From NCBI RefSeq assembly GCF_036711975.1, contig NC_091976.1, forward strand, positions 7,812,001 through 7,876,000: a DNA stretch of 64,000 nt. Reading direction: 5' to 3'. Under the pieces are notes generated by a model. That model was not told the DNA's origin. It worked only from the letters and a program-made list of their open reading frames with translations, and searched no databases. Each line of letters starts with the position of its first letter. The first letter of the stretch is position 1. Positions 1 through 37,800 of this stretch are shown here, piece by piece. Source of the stretch: Onthophagus taurus (lineage: Eukaryota > Arthropoda > Insecta > Coleoptera > Scarabaeidae). The position numbers were made by a program, and so were the translations under genes.

Positions 1-1883
1 ATAACAATCGCACAACACTACTTAGAAACTCAAGAGACGCGATTATGCGACCGTACACCTCGCACGTTTTTGAAACATACAATAGATAGTATGCAAGCTG
101 GATAGCAATACAACAGTCTTACCCTTTTTTAGCACGTAGGGGACAAGGGTTTCGTTTCTTGTATAACCGAAAATGCTATTACACTGTGCTCTACGTTTTG
201 GCAAAGCAAAACTTGGTGGTAATTCTCTCTTGTTTTTTCGGACAGTTCCAACGTATGATATTTTCTTCTTTTCCAAAGCTTCTGCGGTAATGTTTCTTTC
301 GCTTCCATAAATTGGCTCTGAAATTCGCATGACAATATCTTCTGCAGAATTACTTTTTTTGTAAGGTCCGTCAGGTTGTTGGCCGCAATAGATCTCCATG
401 TTGGCAGTATAAAAAAGCTTTGCGTCAGCAAGACAAAAGATTTTTATATCATATTTTGTTGGCTTTGACAGTATATATTGCCGAAAACCACAACGACCAC
501 GAAATGCTGGAAGCATCTCATCAATAGTGACGTTTTCGCCTAAATTGTAATGTAATTTGCAATTCTCAATAAATAAAACAAATATTTCACGAATTGCCGC
601 TAACTTGTCAGTTTCACACCTTCTTTGTCGTGTAGATCGGTCATCAAATCGGAGGCATCGCATAAGGAAACGAAATCATGAAATTGACATAACCATTCTA
701 AAGATGTCGAGTCCTAAGCCATCAGTTGCCCAAAAATCACAAATATTTTGGTGACCGCCTCGAAAAACTCCTGCCAAGTATAACAACTCCAGTAAAGCTT
801 TAATTTCAATAATGTCAGTGGGGTTGCAATCTCGATCGCGGACAAATTTTTCTTTTATATTCTATATGTACTTATTTGTACTGTCAACTATCGCTACTGT
901 TCGCTAAAAGCGAACAATCCTGTTCGCTTTTAGCGTCTATTGCAAATCTACCTACTACGCCGAGTAATTTTACTAAAACATTATATGGGCATGCCTGAGT
1001 TCGTTTCCATGGTGTCGTTTTCCATTGCGTTCCATCTTTACTTACCAAAAGTTTATCTTTGCAACGAACCATTTATCCAAAGAAACTACGTTTACTTACC
1101 GATATAATAACCAATTTCTTGATATTCATCATCCTCATTTTCATCGTCATCGTCCATGTCATGATCCGTATCAGAGTCAACAGGTCTTTATTCAATGTTG
1201 TCTTTAGTTTCTGAATCATCTGATTCTTTGAAACGTCATCCGGTAAAGTCACATTTTCATCAATTTCTTCAAAAACTATGCGATTTAGCTGATCTACATC
1301 AGCGGCATTACCAAAGTCATAACAACGCTTTTTGTCCATTCTTATACACTTACTAACAATAAACCAAAAAAGTTGTCTATTCTATAAGGAAACTATTGAA
1401 TATGTGCGTGAATTGCTCAACAAACATCCGTCGAATAAGTGAGAAGTAAATCCCTCGATGGGATACGTGCATGAATGCAACACAAAAACGGATCAATATA
1501 TTTTTATTCTTATTATTATGTATATAAAATTGATACTTATTAGAAATACACAACTAAACAATTTACTAACACGTAAATCAAAAGGATATCTAAACAATAA
1601 AACTACCGAATATGTGCGTGAACTACCGGATCAACGTTCGCCGAAAAAAGGAAACGTAAATACACGCGCTGGGATTTTCAGTCCCTAATCATGTACGCGC
1701 GGCATTGTTTGAGTGTTTACAAAGTAATAAAACTGATCCTTCGTTTGAAACTCATGTAAAGGGTTCCTAAAACATCATTTTGAGATCTCAAAAATCCACA
1801 GTGTCGTAGCTGTAATAGTTTTTACGTAATTACAGAAATGATAAGGCATGAGACTGCCAGTCCCATACGCGTCTATTCAAGGG
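1..1883 (-). mobile_element. piggyBac-like transposon, one end preserved
   Basis: Read on the minus strand, the element opens at 1883 with a piggyBac-type terminus (CCCTTGAATAGACGCG) next to TTAA at 1884-1887. A related terminus (CCCTCCGTTAGTCGC) opens the element at 42709. The leader between 1340 and 1883 carries two diverged direct repeats of about 85 bp (1376-1463 and 1588-1673), both containing GAATATGTGCGTGAA. The transposase frame follows from 1339. Similarity to the sister transposase stops near position 110, so the other end is deleted, replaced or outside the window. The TTAA lies inside hAT coding sequence, so the element landed in a hAT transposon. Confidence 0.75.
43..1339 (-). 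pseudogene. piggyBac transposase, broken
   Basis: Three minus-strand frames together cover most of a piggyBac transposase. 1339-1073 carries the acidic N-terminus starting MDKK, like the element at 43019. 1072-884 carries the DGTQWK...PW segment. 663-43 carries the catalytic core with VTIDEMLPAFRGR and a later VGTVRKNKREL motif. The second catalytic Asp motif (ADNWF in the sister copy) is replaced by AEALE, a small deletion or rearrangement. The frame runs into unrelated residues after SSLH and stops at 43, so the third Asp and the Cys-rich C-terminus are missing. Several frameshifts lie between 663 and 1073. It belongs to the same subfamily as 42709-45060 and cannot make a working enzyme. 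Confidence 0.8.
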
Positions 1884-2022: not shown

Positions 2023-2153
2023 TGTAGTATAGGTTACCATTCTTACTTGTATTGTATGTAGGCGCTGTGCGCACGACGATTTGAATAAAAGCAGTTAACA
2101 TCTAGCAGGCGTATTGATAAGACGACCTTTCCACAACGGATGACATTACAACA
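2023..2153 (+). repeat. 5' LTR of mag-like element
   Basis: A 131-bp direct repeat, TG...CA ended, identical by eye to 6295-6425. It contains TGAATAAAAG, a possible polyadenylation signal. The element's promoter should lie here, but I see no clear TATA box. Confidence 0.93.
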
Positions 2154-2177
2154 TGGCAAGGGATTTGTTAGTGAGGT

Positions 2178-5100
2178 ATGGAATCGAAAAACGCTATTCC
2201 GTGCCTACAAATGGCTGGAAATACATCAGAAAATTGGAAACGTTTTATCCAGAGGTTTGAAATATACGCGTCGGCCATTGAGCTCGACAAGAAAGAAGAA
2301 AGAACGCAATGTGCCCAACTTTTACATCTAATCGCTGAGGAGGCAATACAAATTTATAATACTTTTAAATTTGAAGAAGAGGAAAAAAATAAAATTAAGA
2401 TTTTGAAAGAAAAATTTAAAAATCATTTCACTCCAAAAAAGAATCTTACTTATGAAAGATATAAATTTTTTACCATGCGCCAAGGTCAAACCAATGTCGA
2501 ACAATTTATAACTGAATTAAAAAATCAAAGTAATGAATGCGAATTGAGTCACTTGCGTGAAGATTTAATTAAATCAATGTTAATCATTGGAATAAAAGAT
2601 GAATCACTGAGAGAAAAGTTGCTGGAAAAAGAGGAAACGCCGCTAAACAGAGTGGTAGAGTGCTGCATCTTAACAGAAAGTTCCCGATCAAAGTTACAGC
2701 ATATGAAAGCGAGAGAAGAAGTACAAGACCGGAAAGAAAATATTGATATAGTAAGAAATAATCCGTTCCGAAGAGGACACCCATCAGTCCCTCGTCAAGC
2801 ATCAGTTCATGGTTATTACAGGCCACGAAGTAGTGCCAGAGAAAGAAGTACTGGATCGTCAAGTAAAGTATCGATAATAAATTGTAAAAAATGCGGAAAA
2901 TCGCACCGAACAAACCAATGCCCTGCATTTGGTAAACCTTGTGATGTTTGTAAAAAAAATAATCACTTTGCAAATGTCTGTTATTATCGAAATAAATCAA
3001 TTAACATAGTAGGTTCTAAAAATTTAAACATCGATTATATAAGTAATAAAAATAAACAATATAATTATTGTAAAGTACAAATTAATATCAACAAACAATC
3101 AAATTATAAAGTCGCATTTAAGGTAGACACTGGTGCTTCCGCAAATATAATTTCAATACAACATTTAAAGAAATCTAAATTTAATTTAAATAAGGTTTAT
3201 GAAGCAAATGATTATTTGGTTGCATATACCGGAGATAAAATTCCTATAATAGGAAAATGTTTTATAAACTTAAGATTCTTTAATAAAACATTACAAAATG
3301 TTGAATTTTACGTAGTTGATAAACAACAATCATTATTGGGACTAAATGCGTGTCTAGGCTTGGATATTCTTAAAATTAACGAAAAAGTTGAGATAGGAAT
3401 GGTCGATAAATCAAAAAACATTAGTTACAAAGATTTAATTATAAGATATAAACAAATATTTGAAGGTATTGGAAAGGTAGGTAAACCTTACCACATAGAG
3501 TTGAAAAATAATTGTAAACCAATTTCACAAGCCATTAGAGGTGTACCTTTTGCTTTAGAAAATAAATTTAAAGAATGTTTGGACAATTTAATAAATTTAA
3601 AAATAATTAAAAAAATCAAAGGTAGTACAGAATGGTTGAACTCTTACGTCTTAGTTAGAAAAGATGACGGATCTTTACGAATATGTCTTGATCCAAAAAA
3701 CCTGAATGAATCAATAAAACCAATTAAAGTAAAAACTCCCACAATAGATGAAATTGCATCAAAATTAAATGGGTCTACAATGTTTTCTAAGTTAGATGCC
3801 ACCAGCAGTTTTTGGAATGTAGAATTAGATGAGGAGTCAAGCAAACTTTGTTCATTTGGAACACCTTATGGACGATACAGATTTTTACGTATGCCGTTCG
3901 GTATAAGTATTGCTAGTCAAGTTTTTCAAGAATACTATAATCAAATTTTCGCCATTCCCGGTGTACAAATTTATATCGACGACATTTTGATTCATGGAAA
4001 AGACAAAGACGAACATGATGCTAGGTTAAAACAGGTATTTGAAATTGCGAAGCAAAACAATGTTAAATTTAATTTACAAAAATGCCAATTTGGCATAAAT
4101 GAGGTCAAATATTTAGGACATAAATTTTCTAAGAAGGGTATGTCAATCGATGAAGAAAAAATATATGCAATCAAAAATATGCCAACTCCAAAAAATGTTA
4201 AAGATATTCAAATTTTCCTGGGTTTTATTAATCAAGTGGGTAGATTTATAAATAATTTATCTGACCTAACTGAACCGTTAAGGCAATTACTTAGAAAGAA
4301 AACTATTTTTCATTGGGGTGCAAGCCAAAATAATGCCTTTGAAGAATTAAAAAATCAGATCTCAACGGAAATTTCATTAAAATACTTCAATCCAAAACTA
4401 AAAACTACAATATCTGTAGACGCATCAAAAAGTGGTGTTGGAGCTGTACTCATGCAAAATGGTTGTCCATGTGCATTTGCTTCCAGATCTTTAACAGACA
4501 CTCAAATGAGATATGCTCAGATAGAAAAAGAGCTATTAGCTATTTGTTTTGGAGTAAATAAATTTTACCAATATGTTTATGGAACTGAATTTGATGTGGA
4601 AACAGACCACAAACCATTAATTTCAATTTTCAAAAAACCGTTAAATAATTGCCCCATGAGGCTTCAACGAATGTTATTGTCATTACAAAAATTTAATATC
4701 AATATATACTTTAAACCAGGAAAAGAATTAATTATTGCTGATGCACTATCAAGGTGCAAGGTGGAAGAACCATTGATTGATGATATGAATATAGAAGCAC
4801 ATGTATGCATTGTTGAAAAAAATATAAAAATTTCAAATGAAAGGGTAAATGATTTAAAAGATGCAACAGAAAGTGACGGCGAATTAAAATTGGTAAAAGA
4901 ATATATAAAAAATGGTTGGCCGAAGATTTCAAAATTAAATAATAAATCTCACGAATTAAAAGCTTTCTATAAAATTAAAAGTGAAATTACTGAATCCAAA
5001 AATGGTTTACTCTATTTCAATCAAAGAGCCATAATACCTAAATCATGGAGAAATAAAGTATTAAACGATATACATGTTGGTCATTTAGGAATAAATAAAT

Positions 5101-6248
5101 GTATACAAAAAGCAAAAAATACGGTTTATTGGCCAAATATTTACAACGATGTTGAAACATTAATTAAAAAGTGCGAGATGTGTAATAAATTCGCAAACTC
5201 AAACGCTAAAGATGAAATGATACCCCATCAAATAATAAAGCAACCTTGGCAGAAGGTTGGTATAGATCTTTTTGAAATTCAAAGTCAAACGTATTTAATT
5301 GTCGTTGACTACTACTCAAAATTCCCAGAGATATGTAATTTAAATAAAAATCTAACAAGTGTAAATGTAATTGAAAAATTAAAGTCCGTATTTGCAAGAC
5401 ACGGTATACCAAAATTGGTGATATCAGATAGTGGCAGACAATTTATTAGCGCCGAATTTCAAAAGTTTGCAAAAGATTGGAATTTTATTGGTATAACATC
5501 GTCACCTCATCATCAACAATCTAACGGCTTGGTGGAACGACATATACAAACAATAAAAAGAATTCTGAAAAAATGTATTGAAAATAACGAAGATATTCAT
5601 TTAGCATTACTGAGTTTGAGAAACACTCCAGTCTATGGAACTTATTCACCGTCTCAAATATTAATGTCCAGGTACCTAAGAGACAATTTAGTGTATAAAG
5701 AGAATTTGTTGCAACCTCGTGTAATAAACAAAAAAAAATTTAATGAGAAAATTAAGGTGAATCAGAAAATAGGAAAAGAATACTATAACAAAAAGGTGGT
5801 TAGATTTAGAAGGAATTTATATAAAAATGAAACAGTGTGGTATCAGGATAGACCAGGCAGTATATGGAAGAAGGGCAGAATTGTAAAACAAATTAGAAAC
5901 AGAACCTTTCTTATTGAAAAAGAGGATGGAGGTAGTTTGATAAGAAATCAGTTATATTTAAAGACTAGATATGACAATAACGAACGTGCTGTCTGTCAAA
6001 CACCTTTGAGTCCTAATTCAAATTTTGTAGCAGCTGGTATTTTGGAGAATTGTAGTGTGAGCGGAGCTATTGTGGATGATAGCCAGGTTGATGTAAATGA
6101 TGATTTAGAGATGGAACCTGTTGGAAACGATGTGGATGCACAGATTATGGCAGAGAGGGGAAAATCGGCTGTTATAGATGATAGTGGCGTTGAAACAAAA
6201 CGTAGAGTAGTAAAACCAAATAAATTAAAAGACTATGTACTTTATTAG
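2178..6248 (+). CDS. gag-pol: Gag-Pol polyprotein of mag-like retrotransposon
   Basis: A 1356-residue open frame. Gag (about 1-235) is followed by two zinc knuckles (about 236-268), a protease with VDTGAS (near 316), and a reverse transcriptase with LDPKNLN and YIDD (599-602). RNase H follows (SVDASKSGVGAVL near 746; DHKPL near 810; ADALSR near 854). The integrase has an H-H-C-C zinc site (about 966-1005), catalytic GIDLF, ISDSGRQF and SNGLVERH (E near 1119), and a basic tail ending DYVLY. Gag and Pol share one frame without a frameshift. The more natural Gag start may be ATG 2211 (MAGNTSENW), 11 codons downstream. All catalytic residues I can check are present and there is no stop, so it may be functional. 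It would make virus-like particles and a cDNA in the cytoplasm and insert it in the nucleus. Confidence 0.93.
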   Translation: MESKNAIPCLQMAGNTSENWKRFIQRFEIYASAIELDKKEERTQCAQLLHLIAEEAIQIYNTFKFEEEEKNKIKILKEKFKNHFTPKKNLTYERYKFFTMRQGQTNVEQFITELKNQSNECELSHLREDLIKSMLIIGIKDESLREKLLEKEETPLNRVVECCILTESSRSKLQHMKAREEVQDRKENIDIVRNNPFRRGHPSVPRQASVHGYYRPRSSARERSTGSSSKVSIINCKKCGKSHRTNQCPAFGKPCDVCKKNNHFANVCYYRNKSINIVGSKNLNIDYISNKNKQYNYCKVQININKQSNYKVAFKVDTGASANIISIQHLKKSKFNLNKVYEANDYLVAYTGDKIPIIGKCFINLRFFNKTLQNVEFYVVDKQQSLLGLNACLGLDILKINEKVEIGMVDKSKNISYKDLIIRYKQIFEGIGKVGKPYHIELKNNCKPISQAIRGVPFALENKFKECLDNLINLKIIKKIKGSTEWLNSYVLVRKDDGSLRICLDPKNLNESIKPIKVKTPTIDEIASKLNGSTMFSKLDATSSFWNVELDEESSKLCSFGTPYGRYRFLRMPFGISIASQVFQEYYNQIFAIPGVQIYIDDILIHGKDKDEHDARLKQVFEIAKQNNVKFNLQKCQFGINEVKYLGHKFSKKGMSIDEEKIYAIKNMPTPKNVKDIQIFLGFINQVGRFINNLSDLTEPLRQLLRKKTIFHWGASQNNAFEELKNQISTEISLKYFNPKLKTTISVDASKSGVGAVLMQNGCPCAFASRSLTDTQMRYAQIEKELLAICFGVNKFYQYVYGTEFDVETDHKPLISIFKKPLNNCPMRLQRMLLSLQKFNINIYFKPGKELIIADALSRCKVEEPLIDDMNIEAHVCIVEKNIKISNERVNDLKDATESDGELKLVKEYIKNGWPKISKLNNKSHELKAFYKIKSEITESKNGLLYFNQRAIIPKSWRNKVLNDIHVGHLGINKCIQKAKNTVYWPNIYNDVETLIKKCEMCNKFANSNAKDEMIPHQIIKQPWQKVGIDLFEIQSQTYLIVVDYYSKFPEICNLNKNLTSVNVIEKLKSVFARHGIPKLVISDSGRQFISAEFQKFAKDWNFIGITSSPHHQQSNGLVERHIQTIKRILKKCIENNEDIHLALLSLRNTPVYGTYSPSQILMSRYLRDNLVYKENLLQPRVINKKKFNEKIKVNQKIGKEYYNKKVVRFRRNLYKNETVWYQDRPGSIWKKGRIVKQIRNRTFLIEKEDGGSLIRNQLYLKTRYDNNERAVCQTPLSPNSNFVAAGILENCSVSGAIVDDSQVDVNDDLEMEPVGNDVDAQIMAERGKSAVIDDSGVETKRRVVKPNKLKDYVLY

Positions 6249-6283
6249 TATGTACTTAACATTGTAAATAAATTCTTAATTTT

Positions 6284-6425
6284 AGGAAGGGAGATGTAGT
6301 ATAGGTTACCATTCTTACTTGTATTGTATGTAGGCGCTGTGCGCACGACGATTTGAATAAAAGCAGTTAACATCTAGCAGGCGTATTGATAAGACGACCT
6401 TTCCACAACGGATGACATTACAACA
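6284..6425 (+). repeat. Polypurine tract and 3' LTR of mag-like element
   Basis: The purine run AGGAAGGGAGA (6284-6294) primes plus-strand DNA in this class of element. The 131-bp LTR starts at 6295 and matches 2023-2153 base for base by eye. AGAAC follows at 6426-6430. Confidence 0.92.
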
Positions 6426-11037: not shown

Positions 11038-11194
11038 TACATAACTACTGGTGTGAAGTTATCCATAAATCCCAGCAATAAACTTAAAACATTAATAATT
11101 CCGTAACCAATACGATTTGGGTAACCAAATTTCACACACAGGTCACTCTTACCCTCAAGAACAGCTAACCACCCCCATTTGGTAAAAAAAAAAT

Positions 11195-14100
11195 TTTTCA
11201 ACCCTCACCCCCGAAAAAGGGATGTTTTCGCCCTGATGGGCACCTTCGAATTAAACGAAATTCTACCACATAATAGAACACACTTCTAAGTATTTTTATC
11301 AATTTTCAAAACACCGTAAGCCCTAACGGTTTTCGAGAAAAAAAATCAGTATTATAAACCGCGGATGGGACTTTAGGGGTGAATTTGACCCCGTTGGGCA
11401 CCTTCAAAATTGATGAAATTTTAGGATGATTTAGAGGATGCCTTTAGCAATTGAAATCAACCATCCAAACACCGTAAGGTATAACGGTTTCCGAGAAAAA
11501 ATGTGTTATTAGACACTATAGGTACACAGCGCGGCGCGGACTTTGGGGGTAAATTTGACCCCGTTGGGCACCTCCAAAATTGATGAAATTTTAGGATGAT
11601 TTAGAGGATGCCTTTAGCGATTTAAATCGACCATCCAAACACCGTAAGGTATAACGGTTTCCGAGAAAAAAATTTGTTATTAGACTATAGGTATACAGCG
11701 CGGCGTCGACTTTGGGGGTGAATTTGACCCCGTTGGGCACCTCCAAAATTGACGAAATTTTAGGATGATTTAGAGGATGCCTTTAGCGATTGAAATCAAC
11801 CATCCAAACACCGTAATGTATTACGGTTTCGGAGAAAAAAAATGTGTTATTAGACACTATAGGTATACAGCGCGGCGCGGATTTTGGGGGTGAATTTGAC
11901 CCCGTTGGGCACCTCCAAAATTGACGAAATTTTAGGATGATTTAGAGGATGCCTTTAGCGATTGAAATCAACCATCCAAACACCGTAATGTATTACGGTT
12001 TCCGAGAAAAAAAATGTGTTATTAGACACTATAGGTATACAGCGGGGCGCGGACTTTGGGGGTGAATTTGACCCCGTTGGGCACCTCCAAAATTGACGAA
12101 ATTTTAGGATGATTTAGAGGATGCCTTTAGCGATTGAAATCAACCATCCAAACACCGTAATGTATTACGGTTTCCGAGAAAAAAAATGTGTTATTAGACA
12201 CTATAGGTATACAGCGGGGCGCGGACTTTGGGGGTGAATTTGACCCCGTTGGGCACCTCCAAAATTGACGAAATTTTAGGATGATTTAGAGGATGCCTTT
12301 AGCGATTGAAATCAACCATCCAAACACCGTAATGTATTACGGTTTCCGAGAAAAAAAATGTGTTATTAGACACTATAGGTATACAGCGCGGCGCGGACTT
12401 TGGGGGTGAATTTGACCCCGTTGGGCACCTCCAAAATTGACGAAATTTTAGGATGATTTAGAGGATGCCTTTAGCGATTGAAATCAACCATCCAAACACC
12501 GTAATGTATTACGGTTTCCGAGAAAAAAAATGTGTTATTAGACACTATAGGTATACAGCGGGGCGCGGACTTTGGGGGTGAATTTGACCCCGTTGGGCAC
12601 CTCCAAAATTGACGAAATTTTAGGATGATTTAGAGGATGCCTTTAGCGATTGAAATCAACCATCCAAACACCGTAATGTATTACGGTTTCCGAGAAAAAA
12701 AATGTGTTATTAGACACTATAGGTATACAGCGGGGCGCGGACTTTGGGGGTGAATTTGACCCCGTTGGGCACCTCCAAAATTGACGAAATTTTAGGATGA
12801 TTTAGAGGATGCCTTTAGCGATTGAAATCAACCATCCAAACACCGTAATGTATTACGGTTTCCGAGAAAAAAAATGTGTTATTAGACACTATAGGTATAC
12901 AGCGGGGCGCGGACTTTGGGGGTGAATTTGACCCCGTTGGGCACCTCCAAAATTGACGAAATTTTAGGATGATTTAGAGGATGCCTTTAGCGATTGAAAT
13001 CAACCATCCAAACACCGTAATGTATTACGGTTTCCGAGAAAAAAAATGTGTTATTAGACACTATAGGTATACAGCGCGGCGCGGACTTTGGGGGTGAATT
13101 TGACCCCGTTGGGCACCTCCAAAATTGACGAAATTTTAGGATGATTTAGAGGATGCCTTTAGCGATTGAAATCAACCATCCAAACACCGTAATGTATTAC
13201 GGTTTCCGAGAAAAAAAATGTGTTATTAGACACTATAGGTATACAGCGGGGCGCGGACTTTGGGGGTGAATTTGACCCCGTTGGGCACCTCCAAAATTGA
13301 CGAAATTTTAGGATGATTTAGAGGATGTCTTTAGCGATTGAAATCAACCATCCAAACACCGTAATGTATTACGGTTTCCGAGAAAAAAAATCTGTTATTA
13401 GACACTATAGGTACACAGCGCGGCGCGAACTTTGGGGGTGAATTTGACCCCGTTGGGCACCTCCAAAATTGACGAAATTTTAGGATGATTTAGAGGATGC
13501 CTTTAGCGATTGAAATCAACCATCCAAACACCGTAATGTATTACGGTTTCCGAGAAAAAAAATGTGTTATTAGACACTATAGGTATACAGCGGGGCGCGG
13601 ACTTTGGGGGTGAATTTGACCCCGTTGGGCACCTCCAAAATTGACGAAATTTTAGGATGATTTAGAGGATGCCTTTAGCGATTGAAATCAACCATCCAAA
13701 CACCGTAATGTATTACGGTTTCCGAGAAAAAAAATGTGTTATTAGACACTATAGGTATACAGCGGGGCGCGGACTTTGGGGGTGAATTTGACCCCGTTGG
13801 GCACCTCCAAAATTGACGAAATTTTAGGATGATTTAGAGGATGTCTTTAGCGATTGAAATCAACCATCCAAACACCGTAATGTATTACGGTTTCCGAGAA
13901 AAAAAATCTGTTATTAGACACTATAGGTACACAGCGCGGCGCGAACTTTGGGGGTGAATTTGACCCCGTTGGGCACCTCCAAAATTGACGAAATTTTAGG
14001 ATGATTTAGAGGATGTCTTTAGCGATTGAAATCAACCATCCAAACACCGTAATGTATTACGGTTTCCGAGAAAAAAAATCTGTTATTAGACACTATAGGT

Positions 14101-14700
14101 ACACAGCGCGGCGCGAACTTTGGGGGTGAATTTGACCCCGTTGGGCACCTCCAAAATTGACGAAATTTTAGGATGATTTAGAGGATGCCTTTAGCGATTG
14201 AAATCAACCATCCAAACACCGTAATGTATTACGGTTTCCGAGAAAAAAAATGTGTTATTAGACACTATAGGTATACAGCGGGGCGCGGACTTTGGGGGTG
14301 AATTTGACCCCGTTGGGCACCTCCAAAATTGACGAAATTTTAGGATGATTTAGAGGATGCCTTTAGCGATTGAAATCAACCATCCAAACACCGTAATGTA
14401 TTACGGTTTCCGAGAAAAAAAATGTGTTATTAGACACTATAGGTATACAGCGGGGCGCGGACTTTGGGGGTGAATTTGACCCCGTTGGGCACCTCCAAAA
14501 TTGACGAAATTTTAGGATGATTTAGAGGATGCCTTTAGCGATTGAAATCAACTATCCAAACACCGTAAGGTATAACGGTTTCCAAGAAAAAAAAATTGTT
14601 ATTAGACACTATCGGTATACAGCGCGGCGTCGACTTTGGGGGTGAATTTGACCCCGTTGGGCACCTCCAAAATTGATGAAATTTTAGGATGATTTGGAGA
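11195..14700 (+). repeat. Left satellite arm, ~21 copies of a 172-bp repeat
   Basis: The landmark GTTGGGCACC recurs every 172 bp from about 11906 to 14658, with slightly shorter spacing before that and one diverged copy at about 11237. Units contain a short palindrome (CCGTAATGTATTACGG or CCGTAAGGTATAACGG), an A8-9 run after TTTCCGAG, and GGTATACAGCG. Inner units are nearly identical. A variant with GATGTCTTTAGCG and GGTACACAGCG recurs at about 13325, 13840 and 14010, showing recent block duplication. The outermost unit is the most diverged. There is no open reading frame. Confidence 0.95.
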
Positions 14701-14753
14701 GTGGATTTTTGATAGAAAAAAAAAACTTTTGATAAAGAATGAAATTTATTATA

Positions 14754-15503
14754 TTAATGGTCTGTTTTACTTATAATTAAATTGTGTAATGGATTGAGAA
14801 TATTATTATAATTAGTTGCTACCGCGTTCCAAACCGCTTCCAATCCTTGTTCATTTAAGTGAATGCCATCCCTGTGTAGAAATTTGTATTAAACACATAA
14901 GAAAAGAAAAATTTTCACGTTGTGTTACCCTTCCATCATGTTTCTGTTAACAATTGCTTCAATGTCGGTACAATTGATTTGCTTTTCAGCACAAAACCGT
15001 CGAATGTAATGATTGATTTCCTATAAAGGCATAGAGAGTATTTATTTATAGCATGACATAGAAATTATAATATCTTACGTTCACAGACTCGAAGTTTTTG
15101 CAGAGAGGAATTGTGCAAATTTGTATTCCTTTAGGATTTAAGGAAAGAAGGAAGCGGAAGAGGTGAGAATATTGGGACTTTAGTTGGGATGGTGATGTTT
15201 TGTGGAGTATATCGTTAGTTCCTATCATTATAACGATATGTCGTTCAACAATATCTCCACAAAACCAAGGGGAACATGTTTTTGGAATACACTTTGCGCG
15301 CCGCAAAAGTTTTAGTATTGTTTGACCGCCTACTGCTAAGTCGAGGAAATATTTCGTTGCTTGTCCGTTTTGATTGTCGTCCTAAAAATATATACCATTA
15401 GTAGGAATTAACTTCATATCTGTTAAAACAAATACTTACTTTGTATAGTACGTAGCATTCGGCAAAAATTACTATCGCCCAAAAACAGTAATTTCGTCGG
15501 CAT
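14754..15503 (-). CDS. SGNH/GDSL-type hydrolase, four exons
   Basis: Exons (minus strand) are 15503-15440, 15381-15079, 15020-14929 and 14871-14754, with GT-AG introns of about 57-58 bp. Exon 1 carries the nucleophile block LLFLGDSNF. Exon 2 carries the glycine block (LAVGGQT) and IGTND (Asn codon 15216-15214). Exon 4 carries DGIHLNEQG with the catalytic Asp and His (His codon 14861-14859). All four SGNH signature residues are therefore present. The protein would be about 190 residues, the usual size of a free-standing domain, with no signal peptide or membrane segment. Introns 2 and 3 join in frame. Intron 1 does not with its best acceptor (15382), leaving a 1-nt phase conflict; the alternative AG just before the TKYF codons restores frame but has a poor pyrimidine tract. 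AATAAA follows the stop within about 10 bp. The natural substrate is unknown; the family cleaves esters, including acetyl groups on sugars and lipids. Confidence 0.75.
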
Positions 15504-15542
15504 CTTCGCTGGTCACTGGTTTTAACAAGAGATAAGCAGAAC

Positions 15543-15578
15543 AACTGATCTCTGCAATAGCTGAGGAACCTTTATATA
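15543..15578 (-). promoter_or_regulatory. Core promoter of the SGNH gene: TATA box and arthropod initiator
   Basis: On the minus strand TATATAAA (15578-15571) precedes TCAGTT (15548-15543). The A of the initiator (15546) would be +1, placing the TATA box at -32. This is the canonical arthropod arrangement, and ATG lies 43 bp downstream of +1. A donor-like CAGGTAAGA a little upstream (about 15596-15588) leaves open an additional upstream exon. Confidence 0.55.
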
Positions 15579-15599
15579 TTATTAAGTTCTTACCTGTGT

Positions 15600-16342
15600 T
15601 ACAGTAATATCGATGGCTATGATTGGTCAAAGCCGGTGTAAGTGTACTTACAATGCACTAACTCGTAAGCCACGTACCTGCTTAAGTGACCTTTTTACTG
15701 AAAAGAAGTTAAAAAGGAATTCCCTGTACATTTATTAACATCAAAAATAAGTTTCTGAATATCCCTATTTCTTTATTAACTTCGCGCTTCTAAATGAAGA
15801 CGTCGTTACCTCGCCAAATATTAATATATATATATTATATATTTAATTAAATATAACTATATTTGTAATTTATAATTTATATTATATATAAATATAATAA
15901 CTTATTTATACATAATATATTATATACACAAAAATATTAACGAAAATATCGAAGCAGATTGATTCTAAAAAGAACCGATAAAATATCCATAAAGCGCGAA
16001 CTACAGCAAAATATATCAACTAGTGATCTCCGTCCCCAATAGAATAGTTTAAGCACATTTATAAGTTTACTCCTCACCCTTCTGGCAAAATCTAAAAAAA
16101 AACAAAGGCGCTCTAAAACAACGCCGAATAAGTCGGCAACTATTTTCCCGGAATGCACTTATAATGCAAAAAATATGGACATATTTTTTCCTTAATACCT
16201 GCGCCTTTTGTAACTGCACGTGGCGGAGTTCTTACCCTTTGTCAGTAACGACTAAAAGCTCATAAAACTACAAAATGCCTTTCTTAACAAAATTTATTTT
16301 TTCCATGAAATATTAAGAGTTTCGCAGTTTTCATAATCTATT
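15600..16342. other. Unique centre of the foldback element, upstream of the SGNH gene
   Basis: No second gene is recognised. An almost pure A+T block lies at 15820-15935. A 73-codon minus-strand frame (16158-15937) has no recognisable motif and begins in low-complexity sequence. The region may hold regulatory sequence, but nothing specific can be shown. Confidence 0.4.
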
Positions 16343-19110
16343 AAAATCGCTAAAGGCACCTGCTATCTGGTCTACATACGTGTACAATTTAATAACAAAT
16401 TTTTTTCTCTGAAGCCGTTAAGGGTTACGGTGTCTTGACGGTCGATTTAAATCGCTAAAGGCATCCTCTAAATCATCCTAAAATTTCATCAATTTTGGAG
16501 GTGCCCAACGGGGTCAAATTCACCCCCAAAGTCCGCGCCGCGCTGTATACCGATAGTGTCTAATAACAAATTTTTTTTCTCGGAAACCGTTATACCTTAC
16601 GGTGTTTGGATGGTCGTTTTAAATCGCTAAAGGCATCCTCTAAATCATCCTAAAATTTCATCAATTTTGGAGGTGCCCAACGGGGTCAAATTCACCCCCA
16701 AAGTCGACGCCGCGCTGTATACCTATAGTCTAATAACAAATTTTTTTTCTCGGAAACCGTTATACCTTACGGTGTTTGGATGGTCGATTTAAATCGTTAA
16801 AGGCATCCTCTAAATCATCCTAAAATTTCGTCAATTTTGGAGGTGCCCAACGGGGTCAAATTCACCCCCAAAGTCCGCGCCGCGCTGTATACCTATAGTG
16901 TCTAATAACAGATTTTTTTTCTCGGAAACCGTAATACATTACGGTGTTTGGATGGTTGATTTCAATCGCTAAAGGCATCCTCTAAATCATCCTAAAATTT
17001 CATCAATTTTGGAGGTGCCCAACGGGGTCAAATTCACCCCCAAAGTCCGCGCCGCGCTGTATACCGATAGTGTCTAATAACAAATTTTTTTTCTCGGAAA
17101 CCGTTATACCTTACGGTGTTTGGATGGTCGTTTTAAATCGCTAAAGGCATCCTCTAAATCATCCTAAAATTTCATCAATTTTGGAGGTGCCCAACGGGGT
17201 CAAATTCACCCCCAAAGTCGACGCCGCGCTGTATACCTATAGTCTAATAACAAATTTTTTTTCTCGGAAACCGTTATACCTTACGGTGTTTGGATGGTCG
17301 ATTTAAATCGCTAAAGGCATCCTCTAAATCATCCTAAAATTTCGTCAATTTTGGAGGTGCCCAACGGGGTCAAATTCACCCCCAAAGTCCGCGCCGCGCT
17401 GTATACCTATAGTGTCTAATAACAGATTTTTTTTCTCGGAAACCGTAATACATTACGGTGTTTGGATGGTTGATTTCAATCGCTAAAGGCATCCTCTAAA
17501 TCATCCTAAAATTTCATCAATTTTGGAGGTGCCCAACGGGGTCAAATTCACCCCCAAAGTCCGCGCCGCGCTGTATACCGATAGTGTCTAATAACAAATT
17601 TTTTTTCTCGGAAACCGTTATACCTTACGGTGTTTGGATGGTCGTTTTAAATCGCTAAAGGCATCCTCTAAATCATCCTAAAATTTCATCAATTTTGGAG
17701 GTGCCCAACGGGGTCAAATTCACCCCCAAAGTCGACGCCGCGCTGTATACCTATAGTCTAATAACAAATTTTTTTTCTCGGAAACCGTTATACCTTACGG
17801 TGTTTGGATGGTCGATTTAAATCGCTAAAGGCATCCTCTAAATCATCCTAAAATTTCGTCAATTTTGGAGGTGCCCAACGGGGTCAAATTCACCCCCAAA
17901 GTCCGCGCCGCGCTGTATACCTATAGTGTCTAATAACAGATTTTTTTTCTCGGAAACCGTAATACATTACGGTGTTTGGATGGTTGATTTCAATCGCTAA
18001 AGGCATCCTCTAAATCATCCTAAAATTTCATCAATTTTGGAGGTGCCCAACGGGGTCAAATTCACCCCCAAAGTCCGCGCCGCGCTGTATACCTATAGTG
18101 TCTAATAACAATTTTTTTTTCTCGGAAACCGTTATACCTTACGGTATTTGGATGGTCGATTTAAATCGCTAAAGGCATCCTCTAAATCATCCTAAAATTT
18201 CATCAATTTTGGAGGTGCCCAACGGGGTCAAATTCACCCCCAAAGTCCGCGCCGCGCTGTATACCTATAGTGTCTAATAACAGATTTTTTTTCTCGGAAA
18301 CCGTAATACATTACGGTGTTTGGATGGTTGATTTCAATCGCTAAAGGCATCCTCTAAATCATCCTAAAATTTCATCAATTTTGGAGGTGCCCAACGGGGT
18401 CAAATTCACCCCCAAAGTCCGCGCCGCGCTGTATACCTATAGTGTCTAATAACAATTTTTTTTTCTCGGAAACCGTTATACCTTACGGTGTTTGGATGGT
18501 CGATTTAAATCGCTAAAGGCATCCTCTAAATCATCCTAAAATTTCATCAATTTTGGAGGTGCCCAACGGGGTCAAAGTCACCCCCAAAGTCCGCGCCGCG
18601 CTGTATACCTATAGTGTCTAATAACAGATTTTTTTTCTCGGAAACCGTAATACATTACGGTGTTTGGATGGTTGATTTCAATCGCTAAAGGCATCCTCTA
18701 AATCATCCTAAAATTTCATCAATTTTGGAGGTGCCCAACGGGGTCAAATTCACCCCCAAAGTCCGCGCCGCGCTGTATACCTATAGTGTGCAATAACAAT
18801 TTTTTTTTCTCGGAAACCGTTATACCTTACGGTGTTTGGATGGTCGATTTAAATCGCTAAAGGCATCCTCTAAATCATCCTAAAATTTCATCAATTTTGG
18901 AGGTGCCCAACGGGGTCAAATTCACCCCTAAAGTCCCATCCGCGGTTTATAAGAATGATTTTTTTTCTCGAAAACCGTTAGGGCTTACGGTGTTTTGAAA
19001 ATTGATAAAAATACTTAGAACTGTGTTCTATTATGTGGTAGAATTTGGTTTAATTCGAAGGTGCCCATCAGGGCGAAAACATCCCTTTTTCGGGGGTGGG
19101 GGTTGAAACA
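16343..19110 (-). repeat. Right satellite arm, ~16 inverted copies with higher-order repeats
   Basis: This is the inverted counterpart of the left arm. A three-unit higher-order repeat of 514 bp occurs three times (the CCGATAGTGTC variant at 16551, 17065 and 17579, followed each time by the CTATAGTCTAATAAC and CAGATTTTT variants). From about 18090 a two-unit alternation of about 343 bp takes over (the AACAATTTTT and AACAGATTTTT variants). The innermost unit (about 16343-16440) and the outermost (about 18940-19110) are diverged, as in the left arm. The right arm is richer in the GTTATACCTTACGG variant and the left in GTAATGTATTACGG. Confidence 0.95.
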
Positions 19111-19325
19111 AATTTTTTTTACCAAATGGGGGTGGTAAGCTGTTCTTGAGGGTAAGAGTGACCTCTGTGTGAAATTTGGTTACCCAAATCGTATTAGTTA
19201 CGGAATTATTAATGTTTTAAGTTTATTGCTGGGATTTATGGATAACTTCACACCAGTTACATAACTTCACTAACATAAGTAAAAAAGAACTCTCCTTTAG
19301 AGAACTGTAAAAACTACTCTATTAA

Positions 19326-22430: not shown

Positions 22431-22635
22431 AAAATTTACAAGCAAAGCGAAAAATATAATAAAATATAATATATAAAATATTACACGTAACATTTACATA
22501 AAAACAAATACACAATCATAATAATCCGTGTCAGAACAGTAGTGGCAGGAAAAAAAAAGTCAATTTGTTCTTATACTAGACACATTCGAAGCCCTGTAAA
22601 TCATTCGACAATTCTTCAATAGAGTAATATGCTCT

Positions 22636-23289
22636 ACGCTATAAAACTTGCTTAATCCTAGTTACAAAAGCTTTAAATGTTAAATTCCTATAACTATCAT
22701 CTGCTGAATGGCATCACGTTGTTTCTGAAGAAAATCCTGCTGATTTGGCGTCACGTGGTGTGTTACCTTCCGAGCTTCCAAATCTTCAGTTTTGGTGTAG
22801 AGGACCTGAATGGCTTAATCTAGCAAATCTATCCTGGCCACAATCTATACCAAGTTGTTCTGAATCCGAAAATTTCGAAGAGCGAAACAGTCATACATCA
22901 GTAATCACATCAACACCAACCTGTTGGGATCTCATAGAGCGTTATTCCTCTCTCACAAAATTACGCTATAAAACTTGCTTAATCCTAGTTACAAAAGCTT
23001 TAAATGTTAAATTCCTATAACTATCATCTGCTGAATGGCATCACGTTGTTTCTGAAGAAAATCCTGCTGATTTGGCGTCACGTGGTGTGTTACCTTCCGA
23101 GCTTCCAAATCTTCAGTTTTGGTGTAGAGGACCTGAATGGCTTAATCTAGCAAATCTATCCTGGCCACAATCTATACCAAGTTGTTCTGAATCCGAAAAT
23201 TTCGAAGAGCGAAACAGTCATACATCAGTAATCACATCAACACCAACCTGTTGGGATCTCATAGAGCGTTATTCCTCTCTCACAAAATT
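22636..23289 (+). repeat. 327-bp exact tandem duplication within BEL/Pao pol
   Basis: Two adjacent copies, 22636-22962 and 22963-23289, appear identical by eye, both starting ACGCTATAAAACTTGC. The unit is 109 codons long, so it keeps the phase. Confidence 0.92.
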
Positions 23290-23705
23290 ATTGCGAATCA
23301 CTGCCCGGTGTTTAAGGTTTGCAAAACAATGTAATAATAAATGTTTGGAGTTTCAGCGGTATTGTCTACTTCCGAAATCAATGATGCTTTACTGGTTTTG
23401 GTAAAACATGTTCAAAAAATATATTTTGCTCCTGAAATTTCCATATTGATGTCTAATCAAACACTACCTCGATCAAATCGTCTAATACCATTCATCGATG
23501 GTAACGGATTTTTACGACTTAGTGGAAAGCTTCAATTTACTAATTTCTATTGGAACGAGAAGCATCCTCTTATTCTTCCGAAGATGTCATCATTCACCAC
23601 ACTGGTTATCAGATATCATTATTTACTCAATCTTCATAGTGATACACAAGTAACCCTGGCTTCTCTGCGTCGGCAGTTTTGGATTTTGGGTGGGCGTTTA
23701 CCAGT
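22636..23705 (+). pseudogene. BEL/Pao pol fragment with tandem duplication
   Basis: The coding pieces match the BEL/Pao segment between RNase H and integrase: WHHVVSEENPADLASRG, then the tryptophan-rich FWCRGPEWL segment, and downstream LIPFIDGNGFLRLSGKL, KHPLILP and LASLRRQFWILGGR. The first part (22636-22962) is repeated exactly next to itself (22963-23289, 327 bp). A frameshift near 23341 separates the second copy from the integrase-side part. No LTR was found. It ends at the Harbinger sequence near 23706. Confidence 0.85.
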
Positions 23706-28476: not shown

Positions 28477-30847
28477 TGATGGATTGCGATAATTCAGGTA
28501 AGGAACAATATTTTTCGATACTTATTTACGTAATTTTAATATTCCTTTATAAATTTTTTAACTGTCAAAAATGACACTGTTAAATATTATTTTTTTGTAT
28601 TAATTAATTTTCAAAAGGTCTTTTAAAGTACTTCAGTGTTCGTCCTTGTACTAATTTATTTTGTACTCCATATTTAACATATTAAGCTATATATTGACAA
28701 AAAATTTAGCCGCGGAAAGCCGCGCTTTTTCAATTTAAGAGCAGTTTAAACTATTGAGTCGAAAGAAAGCAAAATGGCATATTTGTGCTTTTTGATATTA
28801 AATCAACTTTATTTTTGTATTAGGTCAGTTTAGTGCCTCGGGTACTAAAATGGTGACTCGAAAATATTTGTTTGATCAAATACAAGCGCAAAATTTACCA
28901 GCTTTAAGTGAAAAACTCGATTTTTATGAAAATCATCTTATACTTCGTTATGGAGAAACTGAAGACGATAAAAAGTGTTTGAAGCAAAGATTTTCTTATG
29001 TAAAATCACAAATCAAACAAAGATGGTTGAAAGTCAACAAACACGAACGTGTTTTTCTTAAAAACAACCAATCTTGGTTAGAGGGAACGTTCGAAATCCC
29101 AGTAAAATCGCCTTCCCCACAAGGTCGACCTCCCAAACCTTTTGGAGAGTTAAGTGAGCGAAGCAAGCGAAGGAAAACTGAAAAAGTTCGCGCCTCCTTA
29201 GACGACGAAGTCATTGAGCACGCTGCACAATCGGTTTTGCAAACTAGTGGACACAGAGATGCCTCGGAAGTTCTAAAAGATATCACAAACTCTCCAACAC
29301 GAGCTAGTAAATATAGAAGAGCCTACTCTGAAGTGAATGACGAGATACTTCCGCTAACACCTCTGCAAGCACTTCGGATGTTCGTGGAAGCCGACCTTAC
29401 TAGACGGCAATACGAAATAATAAGGGCAACAAACCCAAAACATTACCTTTGCTATGACCTTTTGTTAAAGGCGAAAGAAGAATGTTATCCGCCAAAAGAA
29501 TCCCTAAGGATAACGGCTACCTGTGCAGAAAGCAACTTACAATGCCTAATGGACCTTACTGTGAAACGCTTATCAATTTTTCTAGAAGAGGTGCTAATTA
29601 CACTTAGCAAAGAAGAAAGGAAATCGCTAATGATTATTTGTAAATGGGGTTGTGATGGCTCTCAAAAATCCAGGTTTAAACAAAATTTTAACAATGAGAC
29701 CTAATGTGATGGAAATATGTTTATGAGTTCTCTTGTACCTTTGCGCATTGTTTGTAGAAAAGAAGGCAGTAAAATAATTTGGCAAAATCCAACGCCATCC
29801 TCTCCGCGATTTTGCCGTCCTATCCGATTCCGGTATTTGAAAGAGTCTATAGACGTAACGAAAGACGAGATAAATTACGTGAAGGATTCTGCAAAGTTGC
29901 TGAATAACACCAATGTCACGTTACAAGACAAGGAATTTATATTCCGGCACACACTAAAAATGACAACGGTCGACGGAAAGGTGTGTAACGCTGCCACAAA
30001 TACTAAATCAACCTCTCAGTGCTACATCTGTGGAGCTATCTCGAAGAGCTTCAATGATTTGAACAAAAGGAGCATTGTAAACCCTTCTGTTTTAGAATTC
30101 GGCTTGTCTGTATTACACGCTAGAATTCGGCTTTTTGAAAGCATAATCCATCTAGCGTACAAATTACCGGTTAAGAAATATAAAGAAAGGAAAACTGAAG
30201 AAGAAAAGGCATTGGAAGCACAACGAAAGTCCGAAATCCAAGAGAAGTTTCGTAATGAAACCGGACTACTCATTGATATGCCAAAGGCTAATTTTGGCAA
30301 TACCAATGATGGCAACACTAGCAGGAGATTCTTTGCAAACCCAGAATTAGCTGCTGAGATCACAGGGATTAGCTTTGAACTGATCTATAGATTGAAGGTT
30401 CTATTAGAAACAATATCAAGTGGTCACAAAATTGATAAAGTAAAATATGATGAATATGCATATGATACCGCAAAATTGTATATAGAACTGTATGGGTGGC
30501 ACCCAATGACTCCGACCATGCATAAAATATTGATGCATGGTGGACAAATAATTCAAAATTCCCTACTTCCTATTGGCCAGCTATCGGAAGAGGCAGCAGA
30601 AGCCCGAAACAAACACTTCCGATCGTATCGGCTTAACTTCGCTAGAAAGTTTTCGAGGGAGGAATGTAATTTAGATGTATTTAATAGACTTTTATTAAGT
30701 TCAGACCCCCTAATTAGCTGCATGAGAGAAATAAAGAAACCTTCACGCATAGCATTCCTCCCTGAAACAATAGCACTATTGATGTCTGCCGAACTAAATA
30801 GAGAGCTGATGGAAGAATGGTCCGAAGATAAAGACGATGTTATTTAG
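28477..30847 (+). pseudogene. Transib transposase, one in-frame stop
   Basis: A short first exon (28477-28498, MMDCDNS) joins in phase to exon 2 (28824-30847). The protein shows WGCDGSQ (first catalytic Asp), a LVPLRIV strand, CxxC zinc residues (CYICG), LHARIRLFE, a glutamine-rich basic helix, YGWHPMTPTMHKILMHG, then GQLSEEAAEARNKHF, which aligns with the region of RAG1 holding its catalytic Glu. The only defect I see is one TAA at 29702-29704. Before and after it the frame is the same, so a single change inactivates a gene of about 680 codons. It acts as a cut-and-paste recombinase related to RAG1; no RAG2-like partner is present. Confidence 0.85.
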
Positions 30848-35516: not shown

Positions 35517-37800
35517 CCCTTTGGGTACATTTGACGACTCACGCTCGTCATGCGCAAATTTTGGCGTAATAACATTTGACGAGTCCGACTCGTCATTTCA
35601 AATAACGCAAGCTAAACGGGTGCCGGGGAACGCGCGGCGCATGCGCAGTAGGGCTGTAAAAACGATTTGAGTTTGCCGTGCGCTAATTTGTGATGATTGT
35701 TTTATGTTTTTGGTTTTGTTTTTGTTAGTTGTCACTAGCACCTAACGCTATTGCTTTGCGAGTAAAAAACTGAGATTGTTTGACGATATTTAGTTATATT
35801 TTATCTCTTCCATAATGTCAGATATTGAAACTGCATTATTCGAAAGTGATAATGAACGAGAAAATGAAGAATTTGATAGAGATGCGTCAATTAGTGAAAT
35901 GGAAAGTGAAGACAATAACGAATTGGAAGATGATAGTGATAGCGACATACAACCCATACGACGAAGACGCAACAGACTCTTATCGAGTAGTGATAGTGAG
36001 TCATCTGATCAACCATTTCAGGAGAAATGGGTTTGGAATGAAACAGAAAATATACCTAATATAAAACAATTTTCCGATATTGCTGGAATCAATCCTATTT
36101 GCCTGCGAAGAGTAAGTGATAGTCCTTCGCCATTGAATGTCTTACACCAAGTGCTCACTCAAAGTTTTTGGGATATTATAACAGAAGAAACAAATAGGTA
36201 TGCTAGACAAAAAATAGAAAAAGAAGGTTTTGTCAAGAAAAGGAATCAAAGATGGTTTCCTGTAAGTTCTGATGAAATGAAAGCATATATTGCGTTATGC
36301 ATTTTGATGTCCCAAGTAAAGAAATCAAAGTTACATATGTATTGGTCTAAACGAAATATTATAAATACACCAATTTTCGCAAACACAATGCCTCGGGATA
36401 GGTTTTTTGACATTTCAAGTTTTCTGCATTTTACAGATAATGAAATAATAAGTAAAAATGATAGAATAAGAAAAATTAGAAATTTAGTAGATTATCTCAA
36501 TAATACATTCTCTAATCTATATACTCCTAATAATGAAGTATCTATTGATGAATCTCTGATGAAGTTCAAGGGACGATTGAGTTATATTCAATTCAACTCA
36601 TCAAAACGAGCTCGATTTGGCATCAAAATATATAAACTTTGTGAATCTTCATCTGGCTACTGCATGCGTTTCAAAATATACGTAGGCAAAGATAAAGTAC
36701 AGGGTGTTGATATACCTGCTTCAGAGAGTGTAGTCATGGAAGTGGCGCAACCAATTCTAAATAAAGGCTACACATTATACATGGACAATTGGTGTTCATC
36801 GCCACAATTATTTTCTGTTTTACAAAACCAAAATACAAATGTCGTTGGAACTGTCCGAAAAAACAGAAAGCATATGCCAAAACAGCTTGCTTCATTCAAA
36901 TTGAAGAAAGGGGAATATAGAATGTTATCCTGTCGTGGTTTATTGGCATTGAAATGGAAGGACAGAAAAGACGTGTATATGCTTAGCACAAAACATGCAA
37001 ATGTTGGAATGGTAGATACAGGCAAAAGGCGAAAACTAAAGGATGGCAATTTTGAAAATATTATCAAACCTTCATGCATTGTTGATTATAATAAAGGCAT
37101 GGGAGGTGTTGATAAACATGACCAAATGCTAGCGTGCTTCCCTGTTATGAGAAAGTGTGTAAAGGGATATAAGACAATGGCATTTTATCTATTAGACATG
37201 GCTATTTATAATGCACACGTCATATATTCTAAAATAAACAGCACAAAAACCTCTGGCGTTGTATCATATCGGCTGAATATTGCAGAAGAACTATTAGAGC
37301 AAGTGTCACTGCCAAATTATAATTGCCGTGGTCGTCCTTCGCATAGTGATACACCATACCGTTTACAGGCATAAACCTGGGCACACTTTCCAGAGAATAT
37401 TCCATCAACAGAGTCCAAACAACACCCTACAAAAACATGCCGAGTTTGTTATAAAAACAAAGTTAGAAGTGAAACTACCTGGCAGTGCAAACAATACCAA
37501 GTACCTCTGCATTTACCAACATGTTTCGAAAAATATCACACTTTGCAAAATTATTAGTAATTTTCTTTTTGATATATTTAGTTGTTAGTTGAAAACTACT
37601 TGTTATTATTTTTGTTTGTTTTATTTATCATTATTATTCTGTAATTATTATAAACTTATATCTTATTTAAACTATGTATTAAATTAAAATAAACAATTTG
37701 TTACATACAAAATATTGCATTATCATACTACTTCAGATAGCAACAAATTAAATACGTTTCAGATGTATGATACTCTTTAAATAATTCAGTACCCAAAGGG
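35517..37800 (+). mobile_element. piggyBac element, nearly intact
   Basis: The ends are CCCTTTGGGTAC and its exact complement GTACCCAAAGGG, flanked by TTAA on both sides (35513-35516 and 37801-37804). The 2284-bp element contains one transposase gene with a single visible nonsense mutation. Close to the left end, the ACGAGT/ACGAGTCGGACTCGT repeats near 35535-35600 are probable subterminal transposase-binding repeats. Confidence 0.93.
35815..37557 (+). pseudogene. piggyBac (PGBD4-like) transposase, one premature stop
   Basis: The frame is open for 519 codons, then reads TAA at 37372, and resumes in the same frame to TAG at 37555 (580 codons in all). It has an acidic N-terminus, the core DDE_Tnp_1_7 domain with [22 protein letters not shown] and [16 protein letters not shown] (the three catalytic Asp regions), and, after the premature stop, the Cys-rich domain CRVCYKNKVRSETTW...CFEKYHT. 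Loss of that C-terminal domain should abolish or weaken end binding. A single base reversal distinguishes it from a complete gene. Full-length piggyBac transposases are about 570-600 residues, matching this length. Confidence 0.92.

Follow-up and report, generated by a model that had tools for sequence, protein, structure and literature searches.

What mobilized the 8.2-kb unit that interrupts a repeat in the genome of the beetle Onthophagus taurus, and does the gene inside it matter to its spread? The DNA analyzed here (the window: 64 kb of contig NC_091976.1, positions 7,812,001 to 7,876,000) includes a gene for an SGNH hydrolase lying between two arrays of a 172-bp tandem repeat in opposite orientation. 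The unit is very probably one member of a young, high-copy, non-autonomous foldback-type DNA transposon family in which the SGNH gene is mainly a passenger. One recently active family thus appears to unite three things: transposition of the foldback type, a satellite-like array that has grown within a transposon, and the multiplication of a complete protein gene, the main exon of which was listed at no fewer than 88 places in the genome (counted by hand). It is an example of a transposon dispersing a satellite-like repeat along with a hitch-hiking gene, with many copies lacking a working gene.

Insertion and copies in the genome

The 8,211-bp unit is a genuine insertion, with the following parts.

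11047..19257, no strand assigned: whole element, read as a non-autonomous foldback element, 8,211 bp
11038..11046, no strand assigned: left 9-bp target-site duplication (TSD), TACATAACT, from the exact copy and the joined-flank match
19258..19266, no strand assigned: right 9-bp TSD, TACATAACT, exact copy
11047..11367, plus strand: left arm, outer non-array part of the terminal inverted repeat (TIR), from end alignment
18937..19257, minus strand: right arm, outer end, from end alignment
14700..16389, no strand assigned: unique centre between the arrays, about 1.7 kb, from repeat, alignment and open reading frame (ORF) evidence

The original prediction, made from the sequence of the window, reported an 8.2-kb unit with a perfect 9-bp duplication, and indeed the window has exactly two copies of TACATAACT, one starting at 11038 and the other at 19258, which directly flank 11047-19257. 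The termini are inverted repeats, identical over 51/51 bp and then over 310/321 bp, with the terminus of the family reading ACTGGTGTGAAGTTATCC; the left and right arms are 95.2% identical over 2,875 aligned columns, and long inverted arms with internal tandem repeats are the structure that defines foldback (FB-type) elements. When the window flanks were joined with a single copy of the duplication, a junction-spanning match of 94–99% identity was found at all 40 genomic places scored, out of 997 first-look candidates. Because the joined flanks match uninterrupted sites elsewhere, the element is a real insertion; it occupies one member of a dispersed repeat, and the other members lack it. Scans of the window for tRNA and Rfam families gave 0 matches.

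Assemblies often go wrong in long inverted tandem arrays, and an alternative explanation of the inverted arms and the enclosed gene could be faulty assembly, a danger that the original prediction had itself named, or else a rearrangement of the locus. This would not account for the matched duplications at distinct sites, the empty sites of insertion, the 42 convergent pairs of termini described below, or the balance of the array unit between strands (786 forward and 773 reverse matches in the genome to a 33-bp piece of the unit at up to 3 mismatches, against 0 for a control), and we regard it as extremely improbable.

A genome-wide search with the 18-bp terminus, allowing up to 1 mismatch, found 107 forward and 107 reverse matches (214 in all), and since the reversed-pattern control gave 0, chance is excluded. 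Counts of pairing and content refer to the 100 of these 214 termini that were listed; they comprise 42 convergent pairs, which span 2,756–11,751 bp with a median of 5,503, while 16 ends have no partner. An SGNH match lies inside 40 of the 42 pairs, the exceptions being L082, discussed below, and L081, which consists of two arms with virtually no spacer between them. Target duplications were exact over 9 bp in 10 of 12 paired copies tested and had 8 bp in common in the other 2; the 12 are the window copy, nine further pairs (7 exact, 2 sharing 8 bp), and L081 and L082, both exact. A TSD of 8–11 bp together with long TIRs is how Mutator-like elements (MULEs) are defined in PMC6446971. The search for further copies by terminus and hydrolase exons that had been proposed returned copies with consistent ends and duplications, not copies without duplications or ending elsewhere, apart from the diverged L084, which has no matching duplication. 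The SGNH genes fall into two types, A and B; the median is 1 difference per 750 bp among A-type genes (n=17) and 5 differences per 755 bp among B-type genes (8 of 9 fetched), and so few differences mean that the copies are young. This is a family of about a hundred copies, recently active in O. taurus. Two other insertions, L004 and L023, lie approximately 143 and 274 bp from copies of one common repeat that contains a piece of the genome's multi-copy MULE.

Arm arrays and captured cargo

The two arrays occupy most of each arm.

11368..14699, plus strand: left array, 19.4 copies of the 172-bp unit, 97% matches, from tandem-repeat analysis
16390..18936, minus strand: right array, 14.8 copies of the 172-bp unit, 95% matches, in opposite orientation and with a two-unit higher-order period

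The satellite-like repeat belongs to the mobile element, as the original prediction held in distinguishing it from a chromosomal satellite: the 100 listed unit matches out of 1,559, all on one contig, lie inside six paired elements by reading of positions. The longest arms hold at least 42 units, and the stretches fetched from the two longest copies (5.0 and 7.5 kb, from copies of 11.5 and 11.8 kb) are arm arrays. The unit may come from the arm itself, since a 49–58-bp inner portion of the non-array arm end is about 79% like it. The likeness of the left and right arms of the window copy is 0.954, versus 0.953–0.986 between arms of different elements, and the higher-order period is 2 units in the right arm of the window, 17 in L077 and 16 in L080. 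Because periods differ by arm and an element's own arms are no more alike than those of others, each arm seems to expand independently; a test for homogenization of the arms within an element gave no sign of it. Three older copies (L079, L083 and L087) carry SGNH with merely one to three diverged units, so that the gene was probably aboard before the arrays grew.

Other members have different contents between the same kind of ends, which points to an element that collects cargo. The ends of L082 are 76 and 87% identical to those of the window copy and have a matching duplication, while its interior is a tripled open frame with a piggyBac match (DDE_Tnp_1_7, 1.6e-21) and a match to a Tc5-type DNA-binding domain below cut-off. 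The other half of that frame we take to resemble a Tigger transposase, and separate genomic matches of the two halves are consistent with this. L084 contains a reverse-transcriptase fragment (RVT_1, 2.3e-8). In L083, which lies within a tandem cluster, a piggyBac-like fragment adjoins SGNH, as it does in the neighbours by position; this cluster (L078, L083 and L090, C7:30.79-30.84 Mb) has four SGNH places about 12–13 kb apart, each beside a piggyBac-type match, and probably reflects tandem duplication of a segment with an old element in it. It was considered as the host source gene and rejected, as it holds element remnants with the piggyBac fragment and SGNH. Foreign sequence between TIRs, in multiple copies with distinct TSDs, is what characterizes Pack-TIR and Pack-MULE elements, and the family looks like a non-autonomous, cargo-collecting foldback element.

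A plausible course of events would begin with a transposase acting in trans, and most likely belonging to the Mutator/foldback type, that recognizes the near-identical ends and excises the unit. Insertion with a 9-bp duplication, which is seen directly, would carry along everything between the ends. Members would have picked up other DNA, including a piggyBac fragment fused to the Tigger-looking fragment, a reverse-transcriptase fragment and a complete intron-bearing SGNH gene, after which the SGNH-bearing lineage would have multiplied. The arrays may have arisen afterwards: each arm would have amplified its own 172-bp segment, one akin to the inner part of the arm, and the arm-specific periods suggest unequal exchange or slippage as the probable mechanism.

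Transposase and comparable elements

The predicted unique centre with an SGNH hydrolase as its sole recognizable gene was recovered, with a Lipase_GDSL_2 match and a longest stop-to-stop frame of 111 amino acids (aa) that is itself SGNH; a MULE transposase is not encoded there, and no PHD-finger transposase was found in the centre. Elsewhere in the genome, the 18-bp terminus at up to 2 mismatches was found within 1.5 kb of 0/16 loci with the MULE domain PF10551, a model that may miss Rehavkus transposases, so that the autonomous MULE/NOF-type relative with the same ends that the original prediction proposed to look for did not appear among these loci. Relaxing the scan to 16 bp with up to 4 mismatches gave terminus-like matches in 6/16 MULE loci, including an inverted pair in L065; as approximately 4 are expected by a hand estimate, we take these as chance. 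The multi-copy MULE of the genome (L061-L070) was rejected as the mobilizer since its ends differ, with TIRs of about 140 bp reading GTGTCTAGGTACACGC. Exact 16-bp termini differing at a base chosen to set aside the common copies occur 6 times in the genome: one belongs to L082, one to L086 and a third sits some 2.3 kb away from an SGNH match, while C6:20072933, C7:17845757 and C11:6952463 entered the comparison by position only. Altogether, no transposase with the ends of the family was found among the 16 PF10551 loci, the three divergent termini assigned above and the 100 listed termini, a search that used no NOF model. Of the assignment to the FB/Mutator group, the 9-bp TSD and repeat arms stand and a shared transposase is conjectural, and we infer Mutator membership from TSD length and arm structure only.

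Another possibility is descent from an autonomous Rehavkus-type element: the SGNH segment would have taken the place of the transposase gene, and the autonomous version would be missing from the assembly or have gone unrecognized there. Rehavkus-1_TC of Tribolium castaneum is likewise a beetle DNA transposon, 9.5 kb long, with a 164-bp tandem repeat in its inverted termini (PMC10218199), and Rehavkus elements are described with 9-bp TSDs, a minisatellite and a PHD-finger transposase (PMC6446971). The 9-bp TSD and satellite-like termini recur here, a likeness by description and not by sequence (PMC10218199, PMC6446971), but no transposase, PHD-finger or other, was found with the ends of this family, with the caution about PF10551 given above. 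We consider such a derivation possible although doubtful; it is a special case of a non-autonomous foldback family, and the likelihoods of the two overlap.

Among foldback elements with captured genes, a close parallel is Ssk-FB4 of Drosophila melanogaster, a Pack-TIR foldback with an almost complete captured gene (PMC8277862). It shares with the O. taurus family TSDs of 9–10 bp, long TIRs, a non-autonomous structure, the lack of a known transposase and several loci with distinct TSDs (PMC8277862). Ssk-FB4 itself occupies three insertion loci (four copies), is polymorphic, and has a known parental gene with protein and selection evidence (PMC8277862), whereas the present family has approximately 100 copies, satellite-like arrays, a parental gene that was not found and a gene that is often dead. 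The claim that no FB-like element with such cargo is known thus holds for SGNH within the literature covered, the gene in Ssk-FB4 being another one, but not for gene capture by foldback elements as such (PMC8277862). Tetris of Drosophila virilis is similar in its arms: a non-autonomous foldback with tandem repeats of about 220 bp in the TIRs and 8–10-bp TSDs, for which the transposase source was not found (PMC4079207), and it was placed among Mutator-type elements on the same kind of grounds, duplication and arm structure (PMC4079207). Tetris is described with no conserved ORF, three structurally complete copies, and repeats that occur also in longer satellite arrays (PMC4079207); none of these longer free arrays was seen among the 100 listed unit places in O. 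taurus.

With respect to cargo, texim on fish Helitrons is a multi-copy SGNH gene on DNA transposons for which both helper and passenger roles have been proposed (PMC4021074). It differs in being carried by a Helitron and not a TIR element, and in its testis expression (PMC4021074). An SGNH enzyme is also encoded by CR1/L2 and rotifer long terminal repeat (LTR) elements (PMC5408684, PMC3905857), but these are retroelements, with the gene in a gag-like or ORF3 position (PMC5408684, PMC3905857). The parts of the present system are thus known separately, from Ssk-FB4, texim Helitrons, Rehavkus-1_TC and Tetris. In the titles and opening lines of abstracts covered, with most subscription journals outside them, neither an SGNH-bearing foldback element nor this O. 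taurus family was described.

The SGNH gene, its relatives and the neighbouring elements

The gene of the window copy has four exons.

15440..15503, minus strand: SGNH exon 1 (block I, GDSN)
15079..15381, minus strand: SGNH exon 2 (GGQ, GTND), frameshifted; joins of exons 2–4 agree with O. taurus protein P0001
14929..15020, minus strand: SGNH exon 3
14754..14871, minus strand: SGNH exon 4 (DGIHLN) and stop

Pfam Lipase_GDSL_2 matches the joined reading of the window copy at E=2.8e-11 and an intact copy at 2.9e-12, and intact copies have the hydrolase blocks with the catalytic S, G, N and H. The joins of exons 2–4 are supported by the O. taurus database protein LOC111429034, the only one found of 56 candidates, whose sequence, compared by eye, is that of B-type copies of the genome. 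Exon 2 of the window copy is two bases short relative to intact copies, hence the frameshift. Of the 30 best-scoring SGNH loci, 16 are complete (192 codons, with S, G, N and H all present), the window copy has its frameshift and 13 misfit the gene model, L050 among them solely through a differing splice-site anchor; because these are the best-scoring loci, intactness is overestimated. The 16 complete genes all come from the burst in which the median is 1 difference per 750 bp. By reading of the match list, 17/40 SGNH-bearing listed pairs are A-type and 23/40 B-type, and 8 of the nine further pairs whose duplications were examined are B-type by the same reading. In sequenced B-type copies GTND has become RTKD, DGIH has become DGIY or worse, and the serine-bearing exon 1 is out of frame, so that three of the four catalytic residues are lost.

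The original prediction suggested that an esterase gene kept between two arrays served a cargo, helper or selfish function. This did not find support: the window copy is frameshifted, B-type copies are the majority of the listed pairs, and substitutions are near neutral. Among 20 distinct core sequences (41 rows), changes by codon position were 29, 25 and 24, and the overall substitution ratio was approximately 0.79 (21 synonymous, 57 not; p=0.22). The gene is thus in all likelihood mainly a passenger, with an intact version in the youngest burst and a dead version in an equally successful sister subfamily.

Several observations weigh against a non-autonomous family with a passenger gene. Synonymous changes are in excess on internal branches (13/34, p=0.03); A- and B-type genes differ at 14/172 intron positions versus 22/579 exon positions (p=0.025); and the youngest burst is the one that carries the intact gene. 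L084, a diverged older copy of 1.7 kb, has no matching duplication, and a search of the genome with an Aquatica protein gave 68/68 matches at SGNH places already known, judged by eye, with no separate host paralogue by that query. To these may be added, from the previous section, the transposase that was not found and the terminus-like matches at MULE loci. Past constraint on SGNH is possible, but a present need for it is not supported.

These same data bear on the alternative that SGNH is an element-encoded helper, in which the enzyme made by intact copies would serve every member in trans, so that the gene would be retained in the youngest lineage; such roles have been suggested for the esterase of CR1-like retrotransposons and for texim of fish Helitrons. 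The presence of the gene in 40/42 listed paired copies, the complete genes confined to the youngest burst, the synonymous excess on internal branches and the recurrence of SGNH/GDSL genes in unrelated mobile elements (PMC4021074, PMC5408684, PMC3905857) all fit such a role. It is harder to reconcile with changes spread equally over codon positions at a near-neutral ratio, with a B subfamily that is at least as numerous (23 versus 17 of 40, by reading of the match list) although dead in three catalytic residues, or with L081 and L082, which transposed without the gene, and the share of intact genes in its favour is inflated by the choice of best-scoring loci. DNA transposons are not known to have an obvious membrane or ribonucleoprotein (RNP) step, which we also count against it, and overall a helper role seems unlikely. 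Since some of these otherwise similar elements carry the gene intact and others carry it dead, the family offers a direct test of whether an SGNH enzyme aids a mobile element, a question also left open for texim Helitrons and retrotransposon esterases.

As to where the passenger came from, a profile search found SGNH relatives in the firefly Aquatica leii (32% identity) and Photinus pyralis, in thrips proteins and in many contigs. Because the parental SGNH gene was not found, capture of a host gene is a weaker case for SGNH than for the transposon fragments. Compared with solved structures, the profile of the family matched Oskar OSK best (1.7e-9), followed by a bacterial lipase (1.4e-8) and a CR1 ORF1 protein (1.4e-5), with Oskar leading the bacterial lipase by just 2.9 bits; the same search with the single SGNH protein gave no useful match. 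Pfam OSK scored above cut-off in 8/8 relatives scanned and below it for the protein of the element (25.2 versus 27 bits), which has no LOTUS match and retains the catalytic residues, and so is not an Oskar OSK protein. The relatives (P0002-P0022, P0038 and P0060) form an OSK-like SGNH family in fireflies, thrips and other contigs, with catalytic motifs in most members; P0060 combines OSK with a Macro domain, and P0038, a thrips protein, takes its name from OARD1. In a tree of 38 proteins OSK fell inside the insect-type group, most of whose rows are contigs labelled according to their rank in the search. The cost of forcing it out of that group is only 0.63 log units (p=0.316, not significant), and a quick tree of 122 proteins gave no strong support for its placement. 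As the tree with OSK inside is not significantly better and the lead is 2.9 bits, OSK ancestry is a lead and nothing firmer. Blondel et al. (PMC7250577) reported no eukaryotic OSK-like sequences except fungal CAZ3. It is conceivable, though we think it quite improbable, that SGNH belongs to a catalytically complete, OSK-like mobile insect gene family, repeatedly transposon-borne, and that OSK, thought to come straight from bacteria, descends from such a gene or shares its entry into insects; catalytically complete OSK-like SGNH proteins of insects do in any case bear on the origin of Oskar.

Other elements occur in the window. A Gypsy-like retroelement at 2023-6425 has one 1,357-aa frame (protease, reverse transcriptase, RNase H and integrase) flanked by identical 131-bp direct repeats. 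A 526-aa open piggyBac-type transposase frame lies at 35794-37371 (DDE_Tnp_1_7, 5.8e-84), with further piggyBac-type stretches at 46-675 (minus strand), cut by the window edge, and at 43289-44802 (plus strand), in two frames. Adjacent frames of 300 and 380 aa at 28802-30844, the second weakly matching a RAG1 recombinase model below cut-off, possibly represent a Transib-like element, and a perfect tandem duplication with a 327-bp period is found at 22635-23290.

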